From positions 4,323,501 through 4,387,500 of the forward strand of contig NZ_CP040710.1 in the NCBI RefSeq assembly GCF_005943945.1: a stretch of DNA of 64,000 bases, read 5' to 3'. Position 1 is the stretch's first letter, and every line of letters starts with the position of its first letter. The position numbers were made by a program, and so were the translations under genes. This document shows, piece after piece, positions 6,198 through 14,713 of the stretch. Below the pieces are notes generated by a model that made no database searches, was not told where the DNA came from, and saw only the letters and a list, made by a program, of their open reading frames with translations. This DNA is from Aggregatimonas sangjinii (GTDB taxonomy: Bacteria > Bacteroidota > Bacteroidia > Flavobacteriales > Flavobacteriaceae).

Positions 6198-7994
6198 CTA
6201 GTCGTTCAATTTGAGTACGGCCATAAAGGCTTCTTGGGGCACTTCTACGTTGCCCACTTGGCGCATCCGTTTTTTACCTTTTTTCTGTTTTTCCAAGAGT
6301 TTACGCTTCCTTGAAATATCGCCCCCATAACACTTGGCGGTAACATCTTTACGCAAGGCTTTTGTAGTTTCCCTAGAAATGATTTTGGCTCCGATAGCTG
6401 CTTGAATGGGAATATCGAACTGTTGCCTCGGGATGAGTTCCTTTAATTTTTCACACATCTTTTTACCGATATTCACGGCATTGTCGGCATGAATAAGCGC
6501 CGATAGGGCATCAACGGGCTGCGCGTTCAATAAGATATCTACACGCACCAACTTGGAAGGTCGCATCCCGATCGGGGCGTAATCGAAGGAGGCATATCCC
6601 CTTGAAACCGTTTTTAAACGATCGTAAAAATCGAAAACGATTTCCGCTAGGGGCATATCGAAATTCAATTCTACACGTTCCGTGGTCAAATAGGTCTGGT
6701 TGGTAATTTGCCCTCTTTTTTCGATACACAACGACATTACATTGCCCACAAAATCGGATTTTGTAATAATCGTCGCCTTTATATAAGGTTCTTCTACCCT
6801 GTCGATGCTCGAAGGGTCGGGCAAATCGCTCGGGTTGTTGACGATCAATGGGGTGTTCGGATTTTTACGGGTAAAAGCATGGTAACTTACGTTGGGCACC
6901 GTCGTAATGACGGTCATGTTGAATTCCCGTTCCAAACGCTCCTGGATGATTTCCATGTGGAGCATTCCCAAAAACCCACAACGAAAACCGAAACCTAGTG
7001 CAGCACTGCTCTCTGGTGTGAATACCAAGGAAGCATCGTTTAATTGCAATTTTTCCATCGAAGAGCGTAATTCTTCAAAATCTTCGGTATCTACGGGATA
7101 AATTCCGGCAAAAACCATGGGCTTCACATCTTCAAAACCGGCAATAGCATTTTGCGTTGGCATGGCCGCATCGGTTATGGTATCGCCCACCTTGACTTCC
7201 CTAGCATCTTTAATTCCCGTAATCAAATAACCCACATCACCTGCCTTGATGCTTTGCTTGGCTTGCTGGGTCAATTTTAAGGTCCCTACCTCATCGGCAA
7301 AATAATCTTTATCGGTCGCCACGAATTTTATCTTCTGCCCTTTTTTGATTTCCCCGTTGATGACGCGAAAATAGGTTTCAACTCCGCGAAAAGGATTGTA
7401 CACCGAGTCAAAGACCAGGGCTTGCAACGATTCGTTCAGATTGCCTTCCGGTGCCGGAATGCGCTCTATAATCGCAGTAAGAATTTCCTGTATACCGATA
7501 CCGGTTTTGGCACTTGCAGGTATTACCTCTTCGGCCTTGCAACCTAACAGGTCCACTATATCATCGGTAACTTCTTCAGGATTGGCACTTGGGAGGTCTA
7601 CCTTGTTCAATACCGGAATGATTTCCAAATCGTTTTCCAGGGCCAAGTACAGATTACTAATGGTCTGCGCCTGTATGCTCTGGGCGGCATCCACAACCAA
7701 GAGGGCTCCTTCACAGGCGGCGATCGATCGCGAAACTTCATAGGAGAAATCTACATGGCCCGGCGTGTCGATCAGGTTCAGGATGTATTCCTGGCCTTCA
7801 TGAATGTACTCCATTTGTATGGCATGGCTCTTAATGGTAATACCGCGTTCGCGCTCCAAGTCCATACTATCCAACAATTGCTCCTTTTTCTCCCGTTCGG
7901 TCACCGCTCCCGTAAAATCCAACAGGCGATCGGCCAAGGTACTTTTACCATGGTCGATATGAGCGATAATACAGAAGTTCCTAATATGTTTCAT
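6198..7994 (-). CDS. lepA: translation elongation factor 4 (LepA)
   Basis: 598 residues, the normal length for EF4/LepA. The GTPase motifs are intact: G1 AHIDHGKST at 11-19, the switch GIT at 51-53, DTPGH at 76-80 and NKVD at 130-133. The EF-G-like domains follow and the LepA-specific C-terminal domain ends with the basic stretch [17 protein letters not shown]. LepA binds the ribosome, where it back-translocates tRNAs or assists assembly and initiation. The gene starts at a clear ATG and diverges from the beta-barrel receptor gene. Confidence 0.99.
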
Positions 7995-8295
7995 AAACTT
8001 TTTCTCTTACCCATGAGGGTTCATCAGCGTTTGCAAAGATAGTCTAAAATCGGGATGCGTAAAGCGTCGGCTGCCAAACACTTGGGGATGGTAAAACTTT
8101 TATTTCGATGGTGAAATTCGGTAGCACCAGATGTAAAACCTAAACAAGCTAGGTTAAATTTAACCTTGATTCGATTATAGGAATAGTTCTTCTATTGATA
8201 ATGGTTTTATCACATAAAATTATAGATAATGTGCTCGTTTTGTGTAGGGTTATACAGATAAATAATATTATTTTTGCCATTAGCCTCATTCCATT
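7995..8295. other. divergent intergenic region
   Basis: 301 bp between lepA (leftward) and the beta-barrel receptor (rightward). It is AT-rich toward the right end and contains a TAnnTTTG promoter match listed separately. No RNA gene or coding frame is seen. Confidence 0.5.
8269..8276 (+). promoter_or_regulatory. candidate -7 promoter element (TATTTTTG)
   Basis: Matches the Bacteroidota -7 consensus TAnnTTTG and lies 19 bp before the receptor start codon. A TTTG at 8239-8242 could be the -33 element, but at 26 bp the spacing is longer than usual. Confidence 0.4.
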
Positions 8296-10698
8296 TTGAA
8301 ACACCTACCCTTAGTTATTACGATGCTACTCTTCTCGGTAGTTTCACTTTTCTCGCAGGACTATACCTTAAGCGGTGTTGTAAGGAACGTTGAAGGAATG
8401 CCGATAGAATTCGCTAATGTTTTTATGTTGAATAGGGAGTATTCGACCCTATTAAAAGGCACCACTACGGATGCGAACGGAAAATTTCAACTTACAGGAG
8501 TCGATAAAGGCACTTTTTTTATCAAGGCCAGCTATATTGAGGCCGAATCGGAACCGATTCTTTTCGAGGTCAAGGGCGACATCGATAGCTTGAATATCGT
8601 GTTGAACAACAACCAACAGCTTGATGAGGTGGTCGTCATCAAGCAAAAACCCCGTTTGGAACGTAAGGTAGATCGTTTGGTCTTCAATGTAGAAAATACC
8701 GCTTTGGCCGATGGGGATATCTGGGAAGTCCTCAAGAAAACCCCTAACTTGTTAATCATCAATGACAAGTTAACCATCAAGGGAAGCGGTTCTGTAGGCA
8801 TATTGATCAATGGCCGCAAAGTGAATATTCCCGAGAAAGATATTATCAATTTGCTATCGGGAACTTCGGCAAGTTCCGTGGAATCGGTCGAGGTGATTAC
8901 CAACCCTCCGGCCAAATACAGTGCCGAGGGCGGAATGCTGGTCAATATCGTATTGAAGAAAAATCTGGTTGCGGGCTATAATGGTGCGATCTATAATAAG
9001 TATACGCAGGGCGTTTTCGCGCGTCATACCCTAGGTACCGATCATTATTTCAGGGGAAGCAAGACCGCGTTTTCGGTAAATTACAGCTACGCGAGAAATA
9101 AAAGTATCGACCGATTTACCGATAACACCACTTTCTTTGAAAATGATGGTACGACCAGTGCTTGGGTTTCTACGCAAGACGTCCTCAGGCGACGGGAGCG
9201 GCACAATGTCTCGGCTTTTTTTGATTACGATATCGATGCAAGAAACCGGCTGAGCTTGTCGAGCATCAATTTATTCCAACCCAAATTATTTAGCGAAAAC
9301 GATTCTGAAACCCTGATCGGGGCTACGACCGATGCATCAGCAACAAGTTTTACGACCTTGAACCGTTCGGAAGCCGAGCAATTGAACACCTCGCTCTATT
9401 TAGATTACGTGCATACGCTGAAAAAAGGGAGTGAACTTTCGTTCAATACCCACTTTACCTACTACGACACCAATCGGCCCCAAATCATCGCGACCGATTT
9501 TTTCGATGCAAATGGAAGCCTGACAGGGGAGAACGACTTTTTAACGGATTCGGAACAGCGCATTAATCTTTTTAGTATACAGTCCGATTACAGCACTTCC
9601 TTAAGCGATAAACTCGATTTGGAGGCAGGTGTTCGGTATGCCGATATCAATTCGGCGAGTAGCGTAACCCAAGAGGGTTTCGATACCGGTCAGATGGGGC
9701 TGAACCCGACAGAAAGCGGAAATTTTGCATATGATGAAGCCATTTGGGCAGCTTATGCAGGTCTGAACAACCGAGGAGAACTATGGCGCCTGAATACCGG
9801 CCTGCGAGCGGAATATACGGAGACTGTCGGCGATCTGGATACCGCACCAGAACCTAATGAACGCAGCTATTTGGAACTCTTTCCGTCATTTTCGATACAG
9901 TACCTTCCCTCAAAGAAGCACAATCTCAAATTGTATTACTATAGGCGCATTACCAGGCCCCGATACAATAGTGTGAACCCGTTTCAAATTTTTATTACCA
10001 ACAATTCCGTGGTAGAGGGAGAGCCCAATTTGCTCCCGGCTACTCGAAACTACGTGTCTGCGGGCTATACCTACGACAAGGGCTATACGCTAGAACTGTT
10101 CTATCGAAACGAGAAAAATCCGTTTCAAATGTTTCTCGAACAGGACAATGAAAGTAAAATCTTTATCACCAAGACCGCGAATTTTGAGCGTAACATCAAT
10201 TATGGGGTAGATGTAACCGTGAATAAAATGCCGTTGCGCTTTTGGGATTTTTATATCGTTGGAAGTGCCTACAGCGTACAGTATAATTTTATCGACTCCG
10301 CCTCCGGACAGGAAATCACCAATCAGGGATGGACGTACAAAATCAGAAGTAACAATACATTTACCCTTTTGGCCGACAAAAGCCTATTTGCGGATCTTGA
10401 TTTTTACTATGTCTCCGATTTGGTGCGTGGGAATCAGGTACAGGAAAGTTACAATCAATTAAGTTTTGCGCTACGAAAAACCTTTTGGGAGAAAAAGGCC
10501 AGCGTTTCCCTAGGTTTGACCGATATCTTCAACCAAGGCAATATTTTCCAAATACGGCGATATGCCAATCAGGACAATACGTCACTCTACAGACCGGAGA
10601 ATAGGCTTTTTACCTTTGGCTTTCGGTATAAATTCGGAAATACGGGCATCAAGGCCAACAGCAAATCAAAAGGCTTGGAAGAGCGCAAAAGGCTCTAG
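8296..10698 (+). CDS. outer membrane beta-barrel receptor (TonB-dependent-like)
   Basis: 800 residues beginning at a TTG codon. The first ATG is nine codons further on, inside the signal peptide, so TTG is the better start. After the signal peptide (about 1-21) comes a carboxypeptidase-regulatory-like beta-sandwich (LSGVVRNVEGMPIEFANVF, about 24-105), then a plug-like region (about 110-225) and a long beta-barrel ending in an aromatic residue pattern (FTFGFRYKFG). It fits the 'outer membrane beta-barrel family protein' group of Bacteroidota, relatives of TonB-dependent receptors often acting alone. No SusD partner is adjacent, so the ligand is unknown. A basic tail (SKSKGLEERKRL) follows the last strand. 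Confidence 0.88.
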   Translation: MKHLPLVITMLLFSVVSLFSQDYTLSGVVRNVEGMPIEFANVFMLNREYSTLLKGTTTDANGKFQLTGVDKGTFFIKASYIEAESEPILFEVKGDIDSLNIVLNNNQQLDEVVVIKQKPRLERKVDRLVFNVENTALADGDIWEVLKKTPNLLIINDKLTIKGSGSVGILINGRKVNIPEKDIINLLSGTSASSVESVEVITNPPAKYSAEGGMLVNIVLKKNLVAGYNGAIYNKYTQGVFARHTLGTDHYFRGSKTAFSVNYSYARNKSIDRFTDNTTFFENDGTTSAWVSTQDVLRRRERHNVSAFFDYDIDARNRLSLSSINLFQPKLFSENDSETLIGATTDASATSFTTLNRSEAEQLNTSLYLDYVHTLKKGSELSFNTHFTYYDTNRPQIIATDFFDANGSLTGENDFLTDSEQRINLFSIQSDYSTSLSDKLDLEAGVRYADINSASSVTQEGFDTGQMGLNPTESGNFAYDEAIWAAYAGLNNRGELWRLNTGLRAEYTETVGDLDTAPEPNERSYLELFPSFSIQYLPSKKHNLKLYYYRRITRPRYNSVNPFQIFITNNSVVEGEPNLLPATRNYVSAGYTYDKGYTLELFYRNEKNPFQMFLEQDNESKIFITKTANFERNINYGVDVTVNKMPLRFWDFYIVGSAYSVQYNFIDSASGQEITNQGWTYKIRSNNTFTLLADKSLFADLDFYYVSDLVRGNQVQESYNQLSFALRKTFWEKKASVSLGLTDIFNQGNIFQIRRYANQDNTSLYRPENRLFTFGFRYKFGNTGIKANSKSKGLEERKRL

Positions 10699-10840: not shown

Positions 10841-11038
10841 TTAACCCAACCCACAAAGCCCAAAGGCAATTAACAAACAACTTCCTCCTATAATTAGACA
10901 CACCTTAGCTGCCTTTTTACTTTTGGCTATCAATAGGATAAGGCCAAGGAGGAGAAAGCCGATGGCTGGTGCGAACATGACAAAGCCAAAAAAGGCCATA
11001 TCGCTGATATAAATTTCCAATGGAAAAGGTCTAATCAT
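10841..11038 (-). CDS. small two-helix membrane protein (paralogue 1)
   Basis: 65 residues with two hydrophobic helices (about 15-38 and 44-63) split by a short basic linker KSKKAAK. It resembles the next gene upstream in length, topology and the pattern G-P-A-x-x-F-L-L...KKAK...GICG, so the pair probably arose by duplication. It is the last gene of the operon with the Lgt-like and radical SAM genes, 9 bp after its paralogue. I do not recognise a named family. The context suggests a membrane accessory to lipid modification. Confidence 0.65.
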   Translation of the reverse strand: MIRPFPLEIYISDMAFFGFVMFAPAIGFLLLGLILLIAKSKKAAKVCLIIGGSCLLIAFGLCGLG

Positions 11039-11047
11039 GAGTTGCGA

Positions 11048-11233
11048 CTATTTCGTGTCCAGTGTAAAATTAGCGAGCATAATACCGCAAATACCAAGAC
11101 TGATCAACAGGTATACCCCGGTCAGTATAAAGAAAATCTTCGCTTTTTTCACGTCATTTTTAATCAGCATGATAAAGGCGATGACTAAAAAAAGTAGCGC
11201 CGGGCCGAACATCAACAACAGAATTCCTATCAT
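11048..11233 (-). CDS. small two-helix membrane protein (paralogue 2)
   Basis: 61 residues, two hydrophobic helices separated by KNDVKKAK. The start codon overlaps the radical SAM stop by 4 bp (ATGA, 11230-11233), which is classic translational coupling and is the main reason to believe in this short gene. It resembles the downstream 65-residue protein. No known family is recognised. A role at the inner membrane beside the radical SAM enzyme is inference from the operon. Confidence 0.7.
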   Translation of the reverse strand: MIGILLLMFGPALLFLVIAFIMLIKNDVKKAKIFFILTGVYLLISLGICGIMLANFTLDTK

Positions 11234-12624
11234 AATACTTCTTCTTGCAATTCTTTCAAACGCTCGATTTTGTCATCCCTATAAAACAGGTTCATGGTCT
11301 CGAACGGAATAATTTTATAGTCTTTGTTCACGATGTGTACACACGATTTTTTGATGGCCCGCACGTCAAAATTATGGGCATCTATAAATTGCATGATGAT
11401 GATACGAAAGAGATTGTCGTACCCAAGCTCGGGGGCATCGATTTCGGGTAGACAGCACATGATGGATTTTAGGTTTTCCGACGCGCTTTCCACGGAATTG
11501 CCCGTGCTGAACAACTCGATCATCTTGCCGTGCAAATGCTCATCCTGCTCGTAGATAATGGTATTCTTACCTTCGTTCAACAGGTCGTCCGGATTGATGT
11601 ATCGCGTTAACGGACTCACCTCATCCCCCAATTTGAGGGCATAGGCCATGACGAGGGCATCGGGATTGCAGGGTACCGGAATCAAATCATCGGGATCAAA
11701 AATGGGGGACTGCTCCAATATTTTCCGTCGTACTTCGGTTAAGGTGATTCTATTTTCATCGACTTCAAAATTCTCCAAGCGGCCTGCAATCTGCGTGGGT
11801 TGGAACGTGACGCCCCGAATGCATTTTTGTTTGAGGGCGAAGTCGATGGTAGTGCCCATTTCATGATCATTGAGCCCTTTTTGCAAGGTGACGACCAGTG
11901 TGGTGGATAGATTGAGTTTGTTTAGGTTTTCAATGGCTTTTAGGCGCGTATTGGCCAAATCGGCACCGCGAAGGGTCTGTAACACCTTATTATCCAACGA
12001 ATCAAATTGCAAATACACCTCGAAATCGGGGGCGTAGGTAGCCAGTTTTTCCGCGAAAGTGAAATCCTGGGCGATTTTTATCCCGTTGGTATTGACCATC
12101 AAGTGCCGAATAGGCAAGGACTTGGCATAGTCCATAATCTCAAAAAATTGTGGGTGTATGGTAGGCTCGCCCCCGCTGAGCTGCACCACGTCGGGCTCGC
12201 CTTCATTTTTAACGATAACATCCAACATCCTTTTGATTTCATCAAGGGTTCGGTGCCTACCGTAGGTGGGTGAAGAGCCTGCATAGCAAGTCGGGCAGGT
12301 CAGGTTGCAGCGGTCCGTGACCTCGACTACGGTCAAACAGGAATGCTGTTCATGGTCTGGGCATAATCCGCAGTCGTAGGGGCATCCGTAATGTGTTTTG
12401 GTGTTGAAGGTTTTCGGATATTCCGAAGCTTTGTTGTAATTGCGTATGTTCTTGTAGTATGCGATATCGTCTGCAATGAGCACTTTGCTTCGGCCGTGTT
12501 CCTTACAGTTTTTCATCATGTACACCTTCTCGTTTTCAAAAATGATTTTCGCGTCGACCCGTCGTAAACATTCCGGGCAAAGACTTAGGGTAAAATCATA
12601 ATAGGTGTAATTTTTTTCCGGCAT
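11230..12624 (-). CDS. radical SAM protein, MJ0619/tetraether-synthase-like
   Basis: 464 residues. The radical SAM motif is C106-NLT-C110-PT-C113, followed by GGEP at 151-154. In front of it is an unusual metal-rich N-terminus: C16-PE-C19, C40-KEHG with His43 (a rubredoxin- or zinc-like site), then C81, C85, C88 and C96, enough for an additional iron-sulfur cluster. Several further Cys lie in the C-terminal third (VPCNPD, MCCLPE, KKSCVH). This layout recalls the COG1964 group that includes archaeal MJ0619 and the tetraether lipid synthase Tes, which join or methylate unactivated carbons. Its start overlaps the Lgt-like gene by 29 bp and its stop overlaps the small membrane gene. A lipid or lipoprotein acyl substrate is inferred, not shown. 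Confidence 0.88.
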   Translation of the reverse strand: MPEKNYTYYDFTLSLCPECLRRVDAKIIFENEKVYMMKNCKEHGRSKVLIADDIAYYKNIRNYNKASEYPKTFNTKTHYGCPYDCGLCPDHEQHSCLTVVEVTDRCNLTCPTCYAGSSPTYGRHRTLDEIKRMLDVIVKNEGEPDVVQLSGGEPTIHPQFFEIMDYAKSLPIRHLMVNTNGIKIAQDFTFAEKLATYAPDFEVYLQFDSLDNKVLQTLRGADLANTRLKAIENLNKLNLSTTLVVTLQKGLNDHEMGTTIDFALKQKCIRGVTFQPTQIAGRLENFEVDENRITLTEVRRKILEQSPIFDPDDLIPVPCNPDALVMAYALKLGDEVSPLTRYINPDDLLNEGKNTIIYEQDEHLHGKMIELFSTGNSVESASENLKSIMCCLPEIDAPELGYDNLFRIIIMQFIDAHNFDVRAIKKSCVHIVNKDYKIIPFETMNLFYRDDKIERLKELQEEVL

Positions 12625-13378
12625 ACAGGATGGCTTGTAGAATGAATTTTCGATAGTACAGCAAACAAATTAGGCATAAATATTGGATGCTGCTCAGACC
12701 GAGGATGAAAAAGCTGTTCGGTTTAAGGAACTCCAAAAGGAAGCGAAGTGAAAAATAGGTGACCATAAAGAGTTTGAACAAGGCCCCATCTGCACAGCCG
12801 TCTTTACGGAAGTACAAATTTTTTATGCAGACGAATAAAAAAAGGAGAAAGGCGATTTCGTACAAAGCGACCGGATGTCGGGAAAGTCCGTTGCCCAAAT
12901 CCATCCCCAGAAAAAAATCGGTTTCCTTTCCGTAGGTGAACTCCTTTACACCTGCCAAAAAACAACCCATGCGCCCGATGATGATGCCGACGATGATCGG
13001 TAGGGTAAACAAATCGCCAGACGAACGTTGTTCCCCGATTATTTTCTTGGCCAGTTCTACACCCAGCAAGCCGCCAAAGAGTCCGCCCATGATGGTCTTG
13101 TTGTTCAGGAGGGCAATCCATCCTTGCTCGTAGTGCAAAGGCGGGTTTTCTAAAAATGCTATGAAGCGCGAAAAGAATAGCGCACCGAAAATGGCACCGA
13201 TGATGATGGAAAGTCGATTGTTCGCTGAAATGGCATCGCTACTTCGCTTCCGAAGCAGAACGTAATACCGAAAAGCCACAAAAAAGGCCATATACTCCAA
13301 TATCAGGTGCACATTCCATTTTATACCGAACAGTATAGGTTCATAGGGTATGGAAAAGGATAGCAGGATTTGGGTCAT
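12596..13378 (-). CDS. prolipoprotein diacylglyceryl transferase-like membrane protein (Lgt paralogue)
   Basis: 260 residues, about seven membrane segments. Lgt landmarks can be aligned by eye: the GGLFGGLLG loop (98-106), GRMGCF (135-140), SRHPVALYE (167-174) and LRFLLEF (211-217). The two essential arginines of E. coli Lgt (143 and 239) appear kept as Arg136 and Arg212, but the position of catalytic His103 is Phe101 and the GN of the signature GRxGNF is GC. The protein is therefore probably not the housekeeping Lgt. It may transfer or bind another glycerolipid. It is the first gene of a four-gene operon with the radical SAM protein, which overlaps its end. A true lgt should exist elsewhere in the genome. 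Confidence 0.85.
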   Translation of the reverse strand: MTQILLSFSIPYEPILFGIKWNVHLILEYMAFFVAFRYYVLLRKRSSDAISANNRLSIIIGAIFGALFFSRFIAFLENPPLHYEQGWIALLNNKTIMGGLFGGLLGVELAKKIIGEQRSSGDLFTLPIIVGIIIGRMGCFLAGVKEFTYGKETDFFLGMDLGNGLSRHPVALYEIAFLLFLFVCIKNLYFRKDGCADGALFKLFMVTYFSLRFLLEFLKPNSFFILGLSSIQYLCLICLLYYRKFILQAILYAGKKLHLL

Positions 13379-13576: not shown

Positions 13577-14713
13577 TTATTCCGCCTTTTGGGAGGGGCC
13601 AGGGGAGGCCTCTTGCCACTCGGCGATAAACAAATTCGTATCGCGGGTGCCACCGTTGTTCCGGTTGCTGGAAAAGGCCAAATATTGGCCATCATTCGAA
13701 AATACGGGAAAGGCATCAAAGGTCTCGCCATGGGTTACACGCTCCAGATTCTTACCATCGGTATCGATAAAATAAAGATTGAAAGGGAAGCCCTTTTCGG
13801 CCTCAAAATTACTGGAAAACAGGATTTTTTTTCCCGAAGGATGAAAAAACGGACTCCAATTTGCGTTGCCCAGAAAGGTTAGCTGTCTGAGGTCGGTACC
13901 ATCCGCATTGCAGATAAAGAGCTCCATTTCGGTAGGTTCAACCAGTCCCTCTGCCAACAGATCCTTATATTTTTTAATGGCTTCCGGGGTTTTGGGGCGA
14001 GAGGCCCTAAAAATAAGTTGGGTGCCATCGGGCGAGAAAAAGGCCCCACCATCGTAGCCCAGCTCATTGGTCACTTGCTGTACATCGGTTCCATCGATAT
14101 TCATGGTGTACAGTTCCAGATCCCCACTTCTCGTAGAGGTAAAAACGATTTTATCGCCCTTCGGTGAAACGGTGGCCTCGGCATCATACCCGGGCTCGTT
14201 GGTCAATTGGGCCGTAATATTCCCTTCCAAATCGGACACGAAAATATCGAACGAATCGTAGACGGGCCAGACGTAATTTCCATTTTTACGCAAGGGTACC
14301 TCGGGACATTCCTTATCGACCAAATGGGTGGAGCCATATACGTAACTCTTGTTGTCCGGTAGAAAATAGGCACAGGTCGTACGGCCGAAACCAGTGCTTA
14401 CCATCGGCGGCTTTTTATCCTTAAAACTCTCCTCGATGTTCATCAAGAACATTTGATCACAATTCATGCCCCAGGCCGCGTTGTTCGATTGAAAAATCAT
14501 TTGCTTATCGTCCCAGCTCCAATAGGCCTCGGCATTGTCGCCCCCGAAGGTAATCTGACGAATGGACTTGAAATATTTTTCCTCGGGGTAGATGAGGGTA
14601 TCGTTGCCGGCCATTAAGGAGGTTTCTTGTTCCGGCTGTGGAGCTGTTTTTTTAGGGTCGGACTTGCAGCTCCAGAACCCTATAATTGCAAGCAAGAGCA
14701 GGTATTTTCTCAT
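13577..14713 (-). CDS. TolB-like PD40 beta-propeller lipoprotein
   Basis: 378 residues with a lipoprotein signal (Cys16 in FWSCKSD). Residues about 45-365 hold repeated PD40/WD40-like blades of the type 'SPDGTQLIFRASR', 'SPKGDKIVFTSTRSGD', 'HPSGKKILFSSN' and 'SNDGQYLAFSSNR', each with an alternating 'LYTMNIDGTD' strand. Such proteins bind partners in the periplasm or at the membrane and have no catalytic site. The gene diverges from the M28 peptidase with only 32 bp between start codons, so the two may be co-regulated. The C-terminal tail is short and Pro/Ser-rich. Confidence 0.85.
   Translation of the reverse strand: MRKYLLLLAIIGFWSCKSDPKKTAPQPEQETSLMAGNDTLIYPEEKYFKSIRQITFGGDNAEAYWSWDDKQMIFQSNNAAWGMNCDQMFLMNIEESFKDKKPPMVSTGFGRTTCAYFLPDNKSYVYGSTHLVDKECPEVPLRKNGNYVWPVYDSFDIFVSDLEGNITAQLTNEPGYDAEATVSPKGDKIVFTSTRSGDLELYTMNIDGTDVQQVTNELGYDGGAFFSPDGTQLIFRASRPKTPEAIKKYKDLLAEGLVEPTEMELFICNADGTDLRQLTFLGNANWSPFFHPSGKKILFSSNFEAEKGFPFNLYFIDTDGKNLERVTHGETFDAFPVFSNDGQYLAFSSNRNNGGTRDTNLFIAEWQEASPGPSQKAE

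Follow-up and report, generated by a model that had tools for sequence, protein, structure and literature searches.

A conserved gene set of an Lgt paralogue, a Tes-like radical SAM protein and microproteins suggests a new route by which a purpose-made lipid is joined to a protein

What might a flavobacterium make with a paralogue of the prolipoprotein diacylglyceryl transferase Lgt, a radical S-adenosylmethionine (SAM) protein resembling the archaeal tetraether lipid synthase Tes, and two tiny membrane proteins, all encoded in one coupled operon? This question is raised by a 64,000-nucleotide stretch of the genome of Aggregatimonas sangjinii (NZ_CP040710.1, positions 4,323,501 to 4,387,500; hereafter the window), for which an earlier note had proposed a modification of glycerolipids or of lipoprotein acyl chains. 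Re-reading the coordinates of the open reading frames (ORFs) gave four minus-strand ORFs with overlaps of 29 bp and 4 bp and a gap of 9 bp, exactly as that note had it, and a role concerned with lipids or lipoproteins fits both enzyme families, given the homology of one protein to Tes and the fold match of the other to Lgt.

Judged from the sequences, an Lgt-like protein, a Tes-like radical SAM protein and one or more microproteins with a cysteine in their tail form a conserved system in many Bacteroidota, and the gene set suggests a new means of linking a purpose-made lipid to a protein. We would give an even chance to a dedicated pathway, with the lipid tails being tailored by the radical SAM enzyme and the resulting lipid then transferred to the microprotein cysteine by the Lgt paralogue. 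This proposal is based on the retention of the Lgt arginines and fold and of the Tes lipid-enzyme architecture, on the co-occurrence, adjacency and correlated distances of the radical SAM and Lgt-like proteins, and on a cysteine motif that is kept, beside the same two enzymes, even in microproteins beyond the reach of a profile search.

Linkage of the two enzymes across genomes

A scan of named genomes yielded 584 loci, of which the best 80 (L034–L113) were kept, all from Bacteroidota according to their record titles and including the genera Maribacter, Zobellia, Arenibacter, Flavobacterium, Tenacibaculum, Aquimarina, Lewinella, Fulvivirga and Mucilaginibacter, among others. Within these 80 loci, a closed radical SAM ORF was present in 79 and an Lgt-like gene was found in 75 of the 79; in locus L095 an Lgt-like gene likewise lies upstream of a radical SAM ORF that runs off the contig. 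Three of the four loci lacking an Lgt-like gene (L085, L101 and L106) have no upstream sequence, leaving 77 testable loci, and in 76 of these the Lgt-like gene precedes the radical SAM gene in the same orientation, in most cases overlapping it or lying immediately before it, and starts within 4.8 kb of it. Only L100 is a true exception, and the Lgt-like gene is split in two in L074 and L076.

The phylum was then represented by a sample of 395 Bacteroidota genomes, scored with a radical SAM profile (E <= 1e-60) and an Lgt-like profile (E <= 1e-25), both cut-offs being chosen in this analysis. The former matched 31 genomes and the latter 32, including all 31, so that a single Lgt-like match (G075) was seen among the 364 genomes without the radical SAM protein. 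Both scans covered an equal number of genomes with matching labels, although the majority of the genomes without a match are not itemised. In addition, pairwise distances of the radical SAM proteins correlate with those of the Lgt-like proteins (r = 0.88, n = 97, with close relatives included and species relatedness uncorrected). The linkage goes beyond chance, as judged by the co-occurrence (31/31 as against 1/364 genomes) together with the adjacency in 76/77 loci, and the neighbourhood survey thus bears out the connection between the two genes on which the earlier note had built.

The window genome holds two other Lgt genes, scoring 216 and 194 bits as compared with 74 bits for the paralogue, and both of their products keep the usual His and Asn. 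The paralogue is therefore not the housekeeping enzyme. With two such genes at hand it could be redundant, a spare Lgt lying by accident next to an unrelated radical SAM gene; such an accident is hardly credible in view of the co-occurrence in the phylum sample, which rules out a chance neighbourhood, and of the presence of the same trio in Actinomycetota.

The latter came from a protein search of plasmid records, of which nine matched and six were examined. In the Mycobacterium branderi record (L156:5328-8521) the order is the Lgt-like gene, two genes for hydrophobic-ended proteins and the radical SAM gene, the two proteins being of 151 residues ending GGLCTGLNP and of 118 residues ending VGVCTGLNP, each followed by a short tail. 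The Nonomuraea record (L157:4090-7467) carries a gene for a 368-residue protein whose C-terminus is hydrophobic and which has SAGICTGINP close to its end, followed by the Lgt-like and then the radical SAM gene. A G-x-C-T-G motif near the C-terminus is thus kept in these very different actinobacterial microproteins. A plasmid record of Persicobacter, which belongs to the Bacteroidota, carries the standard set. Tes-like genes were also seen beside a methyltransferase gene in Mycolicibacterium vanbaalenii and two haloarchaea (L152:7968-10336, L154:5893-8171 and L155:5974-8177), and no Lgt is annotated within the 6–8 kb flanks of these.

A distant version of the set was found in L145:7986-11588, L146:3435-6941 and L148:7553-11117, in which the Lgt-like gene is located downstream of the radical SAM gene with two extra genes in between. 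In L145 and L146 these encode, by Pfam, an ICMT/PEMT-family membrane methyltransferase and a DUF4395 protein, and L148 looks alike by eye. The microprotein gene follows the Lgt-like gene in all three, and its product has FGAC or FGSC near its end.

The cysteine of the microproteins

The two tiny membrane proteins listed in the earlier note are present, the second being a paralogue of the first (40% identity, alignment A3), but the note had passed over the fact that they represent a conserved third component with a near-invariant cysteine. Microproteins were picked by position, as the first hydrophobic ORF of 45–140 codons starting between −40 and +120 bases from the end of the radical SAM gene, and the pick was blind to cysteine, whose hydropathy was set to 0. 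Such an ORF was obtained in 101 of the 115 distinct loci having a radical SAM ORF, and 99 of the 101 products carry a cysteine within their last 20 residues; the density of cysteine is 108 per 2020 residues in these last 20 positions and 24 per 5072 elsewhere. Among the 14 loci without a pick, the microprotein lies slightly further downstream in L043, L044 and L074, between the Lgt-like and radical SAM genes in L016, L017, L126, L127 and L128, and after the Lgt-like gene in L140 and L141 (L145 and L148 with wider flanks), and L133 is cut by a contig edge.

When the 99 sequences were aligned on the cysteine, Gly or Ser was found at position −4 in 95, Leu or Phe at −3 in 84, Gly, Ser or Ala at −2 in 98, Ile, Thr or Val at −1 in 82 and Gly at +1 in 72, giving a lipobox-like motif, [GS]-[LF]-[GSA]-x-C, at the predicted outer end of the last helix. 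The motif is preceded by a hydrophobic stretch, the 15 residues before this stretch contain on average 3.3 Lys or Arg, and the tail after the cysteine is 3–12 residues long. This make-up resembles a signal peptide with the cysteine predicted to lie outside, since the positive-inside rule places it at the outer, periplasmic face. The classic lipobox, L-[AS]-[GA]-C, belongs to an N-terminal signal peptide and usually has Gly, Ala or Ser before the cysteine. In the microproteins, Leu or Phe at −3 and the small residue at −2 agree with it, whereas the cysteine is near the C-terminus. In E. coli Lgt the active site presumably faces the periplasm (PMC4728403), the same side as that predicted for the microprotein cysteine at the end of the last helix, and this cysteine is the likeliest acceptor.

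The first 1 kb following the radical SAM gene holds an ORF of this make-up in 77 of 79 loci, as against a frequency of 0.011 per kb of strand in the rest of these loci. When 60 genomes were searched with a profile of the Flavobacteriaceae-type microproteins, 15 matched (that of the window included), 13 of which possess the radical SAM gene, and in these 13 every match adjoins that gene. The other two are G034, with a marginal match (E 1.6e-4), and G012, with an orphan copy lacking the cysteine. In G040 and G053 the operon is present with microproteins beyond the reach of this search; likewise, those of L105, L138, L139, L145, L146, L148, M. branderi and Nonomuraea score E 0.6 or worse and share the cysteine motif. 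No known family exceeded its cut-off for the two window proteins in Pfam and NCBIfam or for six others in Pfam. Among 75 loci with 2.5 kb of downstream sequence, a single copy was detected by the profile in 49, two copies in 13, three in one and four in one, amounting to two or more copies in 15 loci.

Small two-helix proteins often regulate membrane enzymes, and the microproteins could accordingly be sensors or regulators of an envelope pathway, with the cysteine as a redox switch and the enzymes making an unrelated product. The tandem copies, and the presence of the enzyme pair in 13 of the 15 profile-matched genomes, favour a substrate or a stoichiometric part instead, which makes a regulatory role very unlikely. 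More weight can be given to a pathway for free lipids, in which the radical SAM and Lgt-like proteins would make a modified membrane lipid (its tails joined or methylated, or its headgroup exchanged) and the microproteins would serve as membrane anchors or subunits that recruit the radical SAM enzyme to the membrane, their cysteine being structural or redox-active. The microprotein and radical SAM genes do mostly overlap or abut, the substrates of Tes are free lipids (PMC9433317), a joining of iso-C15 chains has been proposed for bacterial homologues of Tes (PMC8941075), and iso-C15 makes up a large share of the 3-hydroxy acids in the table rows consulted for soil Bacteroidota isolates (PMC10025309). 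However, an anchor needs neither an outer-face cysteine that is kept while the remaining sequence diverges beyond recognition nor tandem copies, and we regard a free-lipid product as possible, if on the improbable side.

Sequence features of the two enzymes

The Lgt paralogue matched the Pfam LGT family with 74.1 bits (gathering threshold 24.9) and stayed at 35.7 of the 118.9 bits of the curated equivalog TIGR00544. Its AlphaFold2 model has a predicted local distance difference test (pLDDT) score of 90.3, and the only fold match in the PDB at E <= 0.001 was E. coli Lgt (5azb; E 3.9e-6, template modelling score 0.58, root-mean-square deviation 5.8). Residues needed by the E. coli enzyme include Tyr26, His103, Arg143, Asn146, Gly154 and Arg239 (PMC13251419; see also PMC4728403). 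The counterparts in the paralogue are His24 (Tyr26), Arg136 (Arg143), Cys139 (Asn146), Arg212 (Arg239) and Glu216 (Glu243), and the HP..YE motif of Lgt has a counterpart as well. Arg136, Arg212, His24 and Cys139 are invariant in the 52 rows of alignment A2, in agreement with the earlier statements that both key arginines are kept and that GC stands for GN. The cysteine at the place of Asn146 also occurs in the distant (L145, L146 and L148) and actinobacterial members, and His24 is kept in M. branderi and Nonomuraea.

The same note had placed a Phe at the catalytic His. The absence of a His at this place stands, but the residue that aligns with His103 depends on the alignment, being Phe101 with MAFFT and Met97 with phmmer against 5azb. 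Met97 fits the place better, as judged from its distances to Asp122 and Arg136 and from where the model helix 96–114 begins. As His103 varies among Lgts and those of other phyla also lack it (PMC13251419), its loss is weaker evidence than had been claimed; the telling changes are Tyr26 to His and Asn146 to Cys. According to the same source, Asn146 is also Cys in distant Lgts, among them MSMEG_5408 of M. smegmatis, which has the same two changes and for which the text consulted mentions no radical SAM or microprotein partner (PMC13251419; compared by description only).

The lone Lgt-like gene of G075 (L160, reverse strand 7504-8349), without a detected radical SAM partner, encodes a protein in which His24 and Gly121, both invariant in alignment A2, are replaced (by eye). 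The orphan microprotein of G012 (L161:734-943), from a genome in which the radical SAM gene was not detected, ends SSGFFYAIIA and has no cysteine. Both orphan members look decayed.

The radical SAM protein is homologous to Tes (PDB 7tol, E 1.1e-69) in two stretches that cover most of its length, and its Pfam matches include Radical_SAM and Zn_ribbon_HMPTM. Among the curated NCBIfam families, the radical SAM (seleno)protein TrsS (NF045646) scored best with 330 of 490 bits, and Tes (NF045702) gave 290 of 450 bits; ten relatives gave 137 to 324 bits with the Tes profile, and none reached the Tes or the TrsS cut-off. Membership in either family was thus rejected, for the window protein as for the relatives, and being under both cut-offs the protein stands outside every group named in NCBIfam. 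The Tes-like identity proposed earlier holds in so far as Tes and TrsS are its nearest families, but the curated Tes cut-off is missed and the C-terminal cysteine set is changed. The CxxxCxxC motif at residues 106–113 and the Cys and His residues at 16, 19, 40, 43 and 81–96 are present as the note had described, and the latter correspond to metal ligands of Tes. The ligands of the rubredoxin-type site, with an identical C-x2-C-x20-C-x2-H spacing, of the N-terminal cluster and of the SAM cluster all agree with Tes (PMC9433317), C96 being additional (Ile in Tes). Cys is found in place of the rubredoxin-type His43 in a high-GC member (L137:1486-2904).

Met439 of Tes, the labile ligand of its C-terminal [Fe4S4] cluster, corresponds to Met411 here, and Tyr459 to Ile431; Tyr459 is not essential for Tes activity, Phe and Leu being tolerated (PMC9433317). 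Out of the C-terminal cysteine pair and PFC motif of Tes only Cys428 is kept, the other Tes cysteines being replaced by Ser427 and Glu442. Three new cysteines, Cys319, Cys390 and Cys391, are conserved across the 22 Bacteroidota rows that were compared, and the C-terminal sets are different again in the distant and actinobacterial members. In a tree of radical SAM proteins, the 22 Lgt-linked rows from Bacteroidota form one group (100/99). Very long branches make the order among the Tes, methyltransferase-linked, distant and actinobacterial rows untrustworthy; in the tree obtained, the actinobacterial Lgt-linked rows stand apart from the Bacteroidota ones, and a single origin of the linkage is not demonstrated.

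A small and at times multi-copy partner beside a radical SAM gene is the usual picture of a precursor peptide, and the microprotein may itself be what the radical SAM enzyme modifies, for instance through a bond between the cysteine sulfur and a carbon of a lipid or peptide, with the Lgt-like protein as an accessory scaffold presenting lipid. In support of this, the Tes reaction passes via a carbon–sulfur bond (PMC9433317). Yet no SPASM peptide-maturase family was found at cut-off, the best score being 58 of 650 bits among the 25 families listed out of 64, and there is no SPASM domain among the five Pfam matches, so that the assignment to such a family, which the earlier note had named as the outcome that would speak against it, did not emerge. 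Moreover, the cysteine is predicted on the periplasmic side, whereas the radical SAM protein lacks any membrane-spanning stretch (maximum 19-residue hydropathy 0.97). The Lgt-like protein, for its part, is linked as tightly as the radical SAM protein. Peptide modification thus appears distinctly unlikely.

A proposed pathway and its genomic setting

In the pathway that we prefer, lipidation of the microprotein cysteine, the cytosolic radical SAM enzyme would abstract a hydrogen from the acyl tail of a glycerolipid and alter this tail, most likely by tail-to-tail carbon–carbon joining as in Tes. The Lgt paralogue, with its re-cut active site (His24, Cys139 and no His103), would take the tailored lipid from a phospholipid donor and form a thioether with the microprotein cysteine in a diacylglyceryl-type transfer. 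As the residue before the cysteine is mostly bulky (Ile, Thr or Val), no signal peptidase step would follow, and the product would be a helix-anchored, lipid-bearing microprotein. More tentatively, and with doubt prevailing, the set may represent a new class of protein lipidation, in which a last-helix cysteine receives from the re-cut Lgt, without a signal peptidase, a diacylglyceryl whose tails have been joined in the manner of Tes; ordinary Bacteroidota, for instance Maribacter and Flavobacterium, which to our knowledge are not known for membrane-spanning lipids, would then make a macrocyclic or membrane-spanning lipid bound to protein.

Several observations weigh against lipidation of the microproteins. 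Their motif is not a lipobox, and we know of no last-helix cysteine that serves as an Lgt substrate. The profile gave no microprotein in 11 of the 75 loci, none was recognised near the radical SAM gene in L098 (with only 1.05 kb of downstream sequence), L100 and L132, and the copies picked in L053 and L081 lack the cysteine, each of these loci having another copy that carries it. In G092 (L132) and G328 the Lgt-like gene is found at a separate place in the genome, away from the radical SAM gene, and as the G012 assembly is 80% complete, the operon may be missing from the assembly only. His24 is not universal, being Tyr as in Lgt in L145, L146 and L148, which are outside alignment A2. With two residues essential in E. 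coli (Tyr26 and Asn146) changed, the transferase activity of the paralogue may be lost, and low activity has been presumed for MSMEG_5408 (PMC13251419). The C-terminal cysteine set of the radical SAM protein differs from that of Tes, and its predicted model, from an 11-row alignment, was poor (pLDDT 52) and not used further.

Compared with known systems, the radical SAM protein shares with Tes (GDGT-MAS, MJ0619; PDB 7tol/7tom) the rubredoxin-type motif, the N-terminal ligands, CX3CX2C and the Met439 equivalent, and differs from it in score, at Ile431, in the shifted C-terminal cysteines and in its operon partners; the Lgt-like protein and microproteins likewise set it apart from TrsS. The paralogue shares with E. 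coli Lgt (5azb/5azc) the Pfam family, the fold, both arginines, the Glu243 equivalent and HP..YE, and differs in the TIGR00544 score, in the changes of Tyr26, His103 and Asn146 and in that no classic lipoprotein substrate is linked to it. A non-canonical lipidation by a dedicated enzyme acting on a lipobox-like partner has similarly been proposed for the Skillet-1 Lipocone and its GS substrate, with an enzyme of the Lipocone family and Ser instead of Cys (PMC12419801). Both enzymes of the present set belong to known superfamilies, and neither their combination with microproteins nor the candidate substrate was found described among the literature matches listed, the search having covered part of the literature.

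Bacterial Tes homologues without a confirmed role, 456 in one study (PMC8941075) and from 281 metagenome-assembled genomes in another (PMC11868695), have been taken to hint at membrane-spanning lipids. The present finding supplies a large group of Tes-like proteins with a constant partner, the Lgt paralogue, and with a candidate protein substrate, which can be tagged and weighed, so that the role of this group is directly testable. In environmental surveys, caution is advisable before such proteins are scored as tetraether synthases. If true, the proposal would bring in a new kind of lipoprotein and also a new route to lipids by radical chemistry.

Features of the gene set in the window (residue numbers refer to the encoded proteins)
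Feature	Position	Strand	Basis or remark
Lgt paralogue, 260 aa	12596..13378	minus	Pfam LGT match, fold match to E. coli Lgt
Tes/TrsS-like radical SAM protein, 464 aa, HMPTM zinc-ribbon/rubredoxin-type N-terminus	11230..12624	minus	PDB Tes 7tol, Pfam and NCBIfam matches
Rubredoxin-type ligand motif C16-x2-C19-x20-C40-x2-H43	12496..12579	minus	spacing as in Tes C9X2C12X20C33X2H36
N-terminal auxiliary cluster ligands C81, C85, C88, H91 (C96 just past)	12352..12384	minus	aligned with Tes C73, C77, C80 and a His
Radical SAM motif C106xxxC110xxC113	12286..12309	minus	invariant in 11 rows of alignment A1
Microprotein 1, 61 aa, two hydrophobic segments, Cys49 in SLGIC-G (codon 11087-11089)	11048..11233	minus	
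Microprotein 2, 65 aa, Cys62 in FGLC-G (codon 10853-10855), also Cys46 and Cys54	10841..11038	minus	

Upstream of the set and on the same strand, the window carries a gene for a PD40 (TolB-like) propeller protein at 13577-14713 (−), and a look-alike lies upstream in L007, L008 and L011 (by eye). A gene for an outer-membrane beta-barrel protein at 8296-10698 (+) is convergent with the set. In the Flavobacteriaceae loci L067, L047 and L069 the gene directly downstream of the microproteins is one that we take to be lepA (elongation factor 4); what is presumably the same gene lies at 6198-7994 (−) in the window, some 3 kb from the microproteins.

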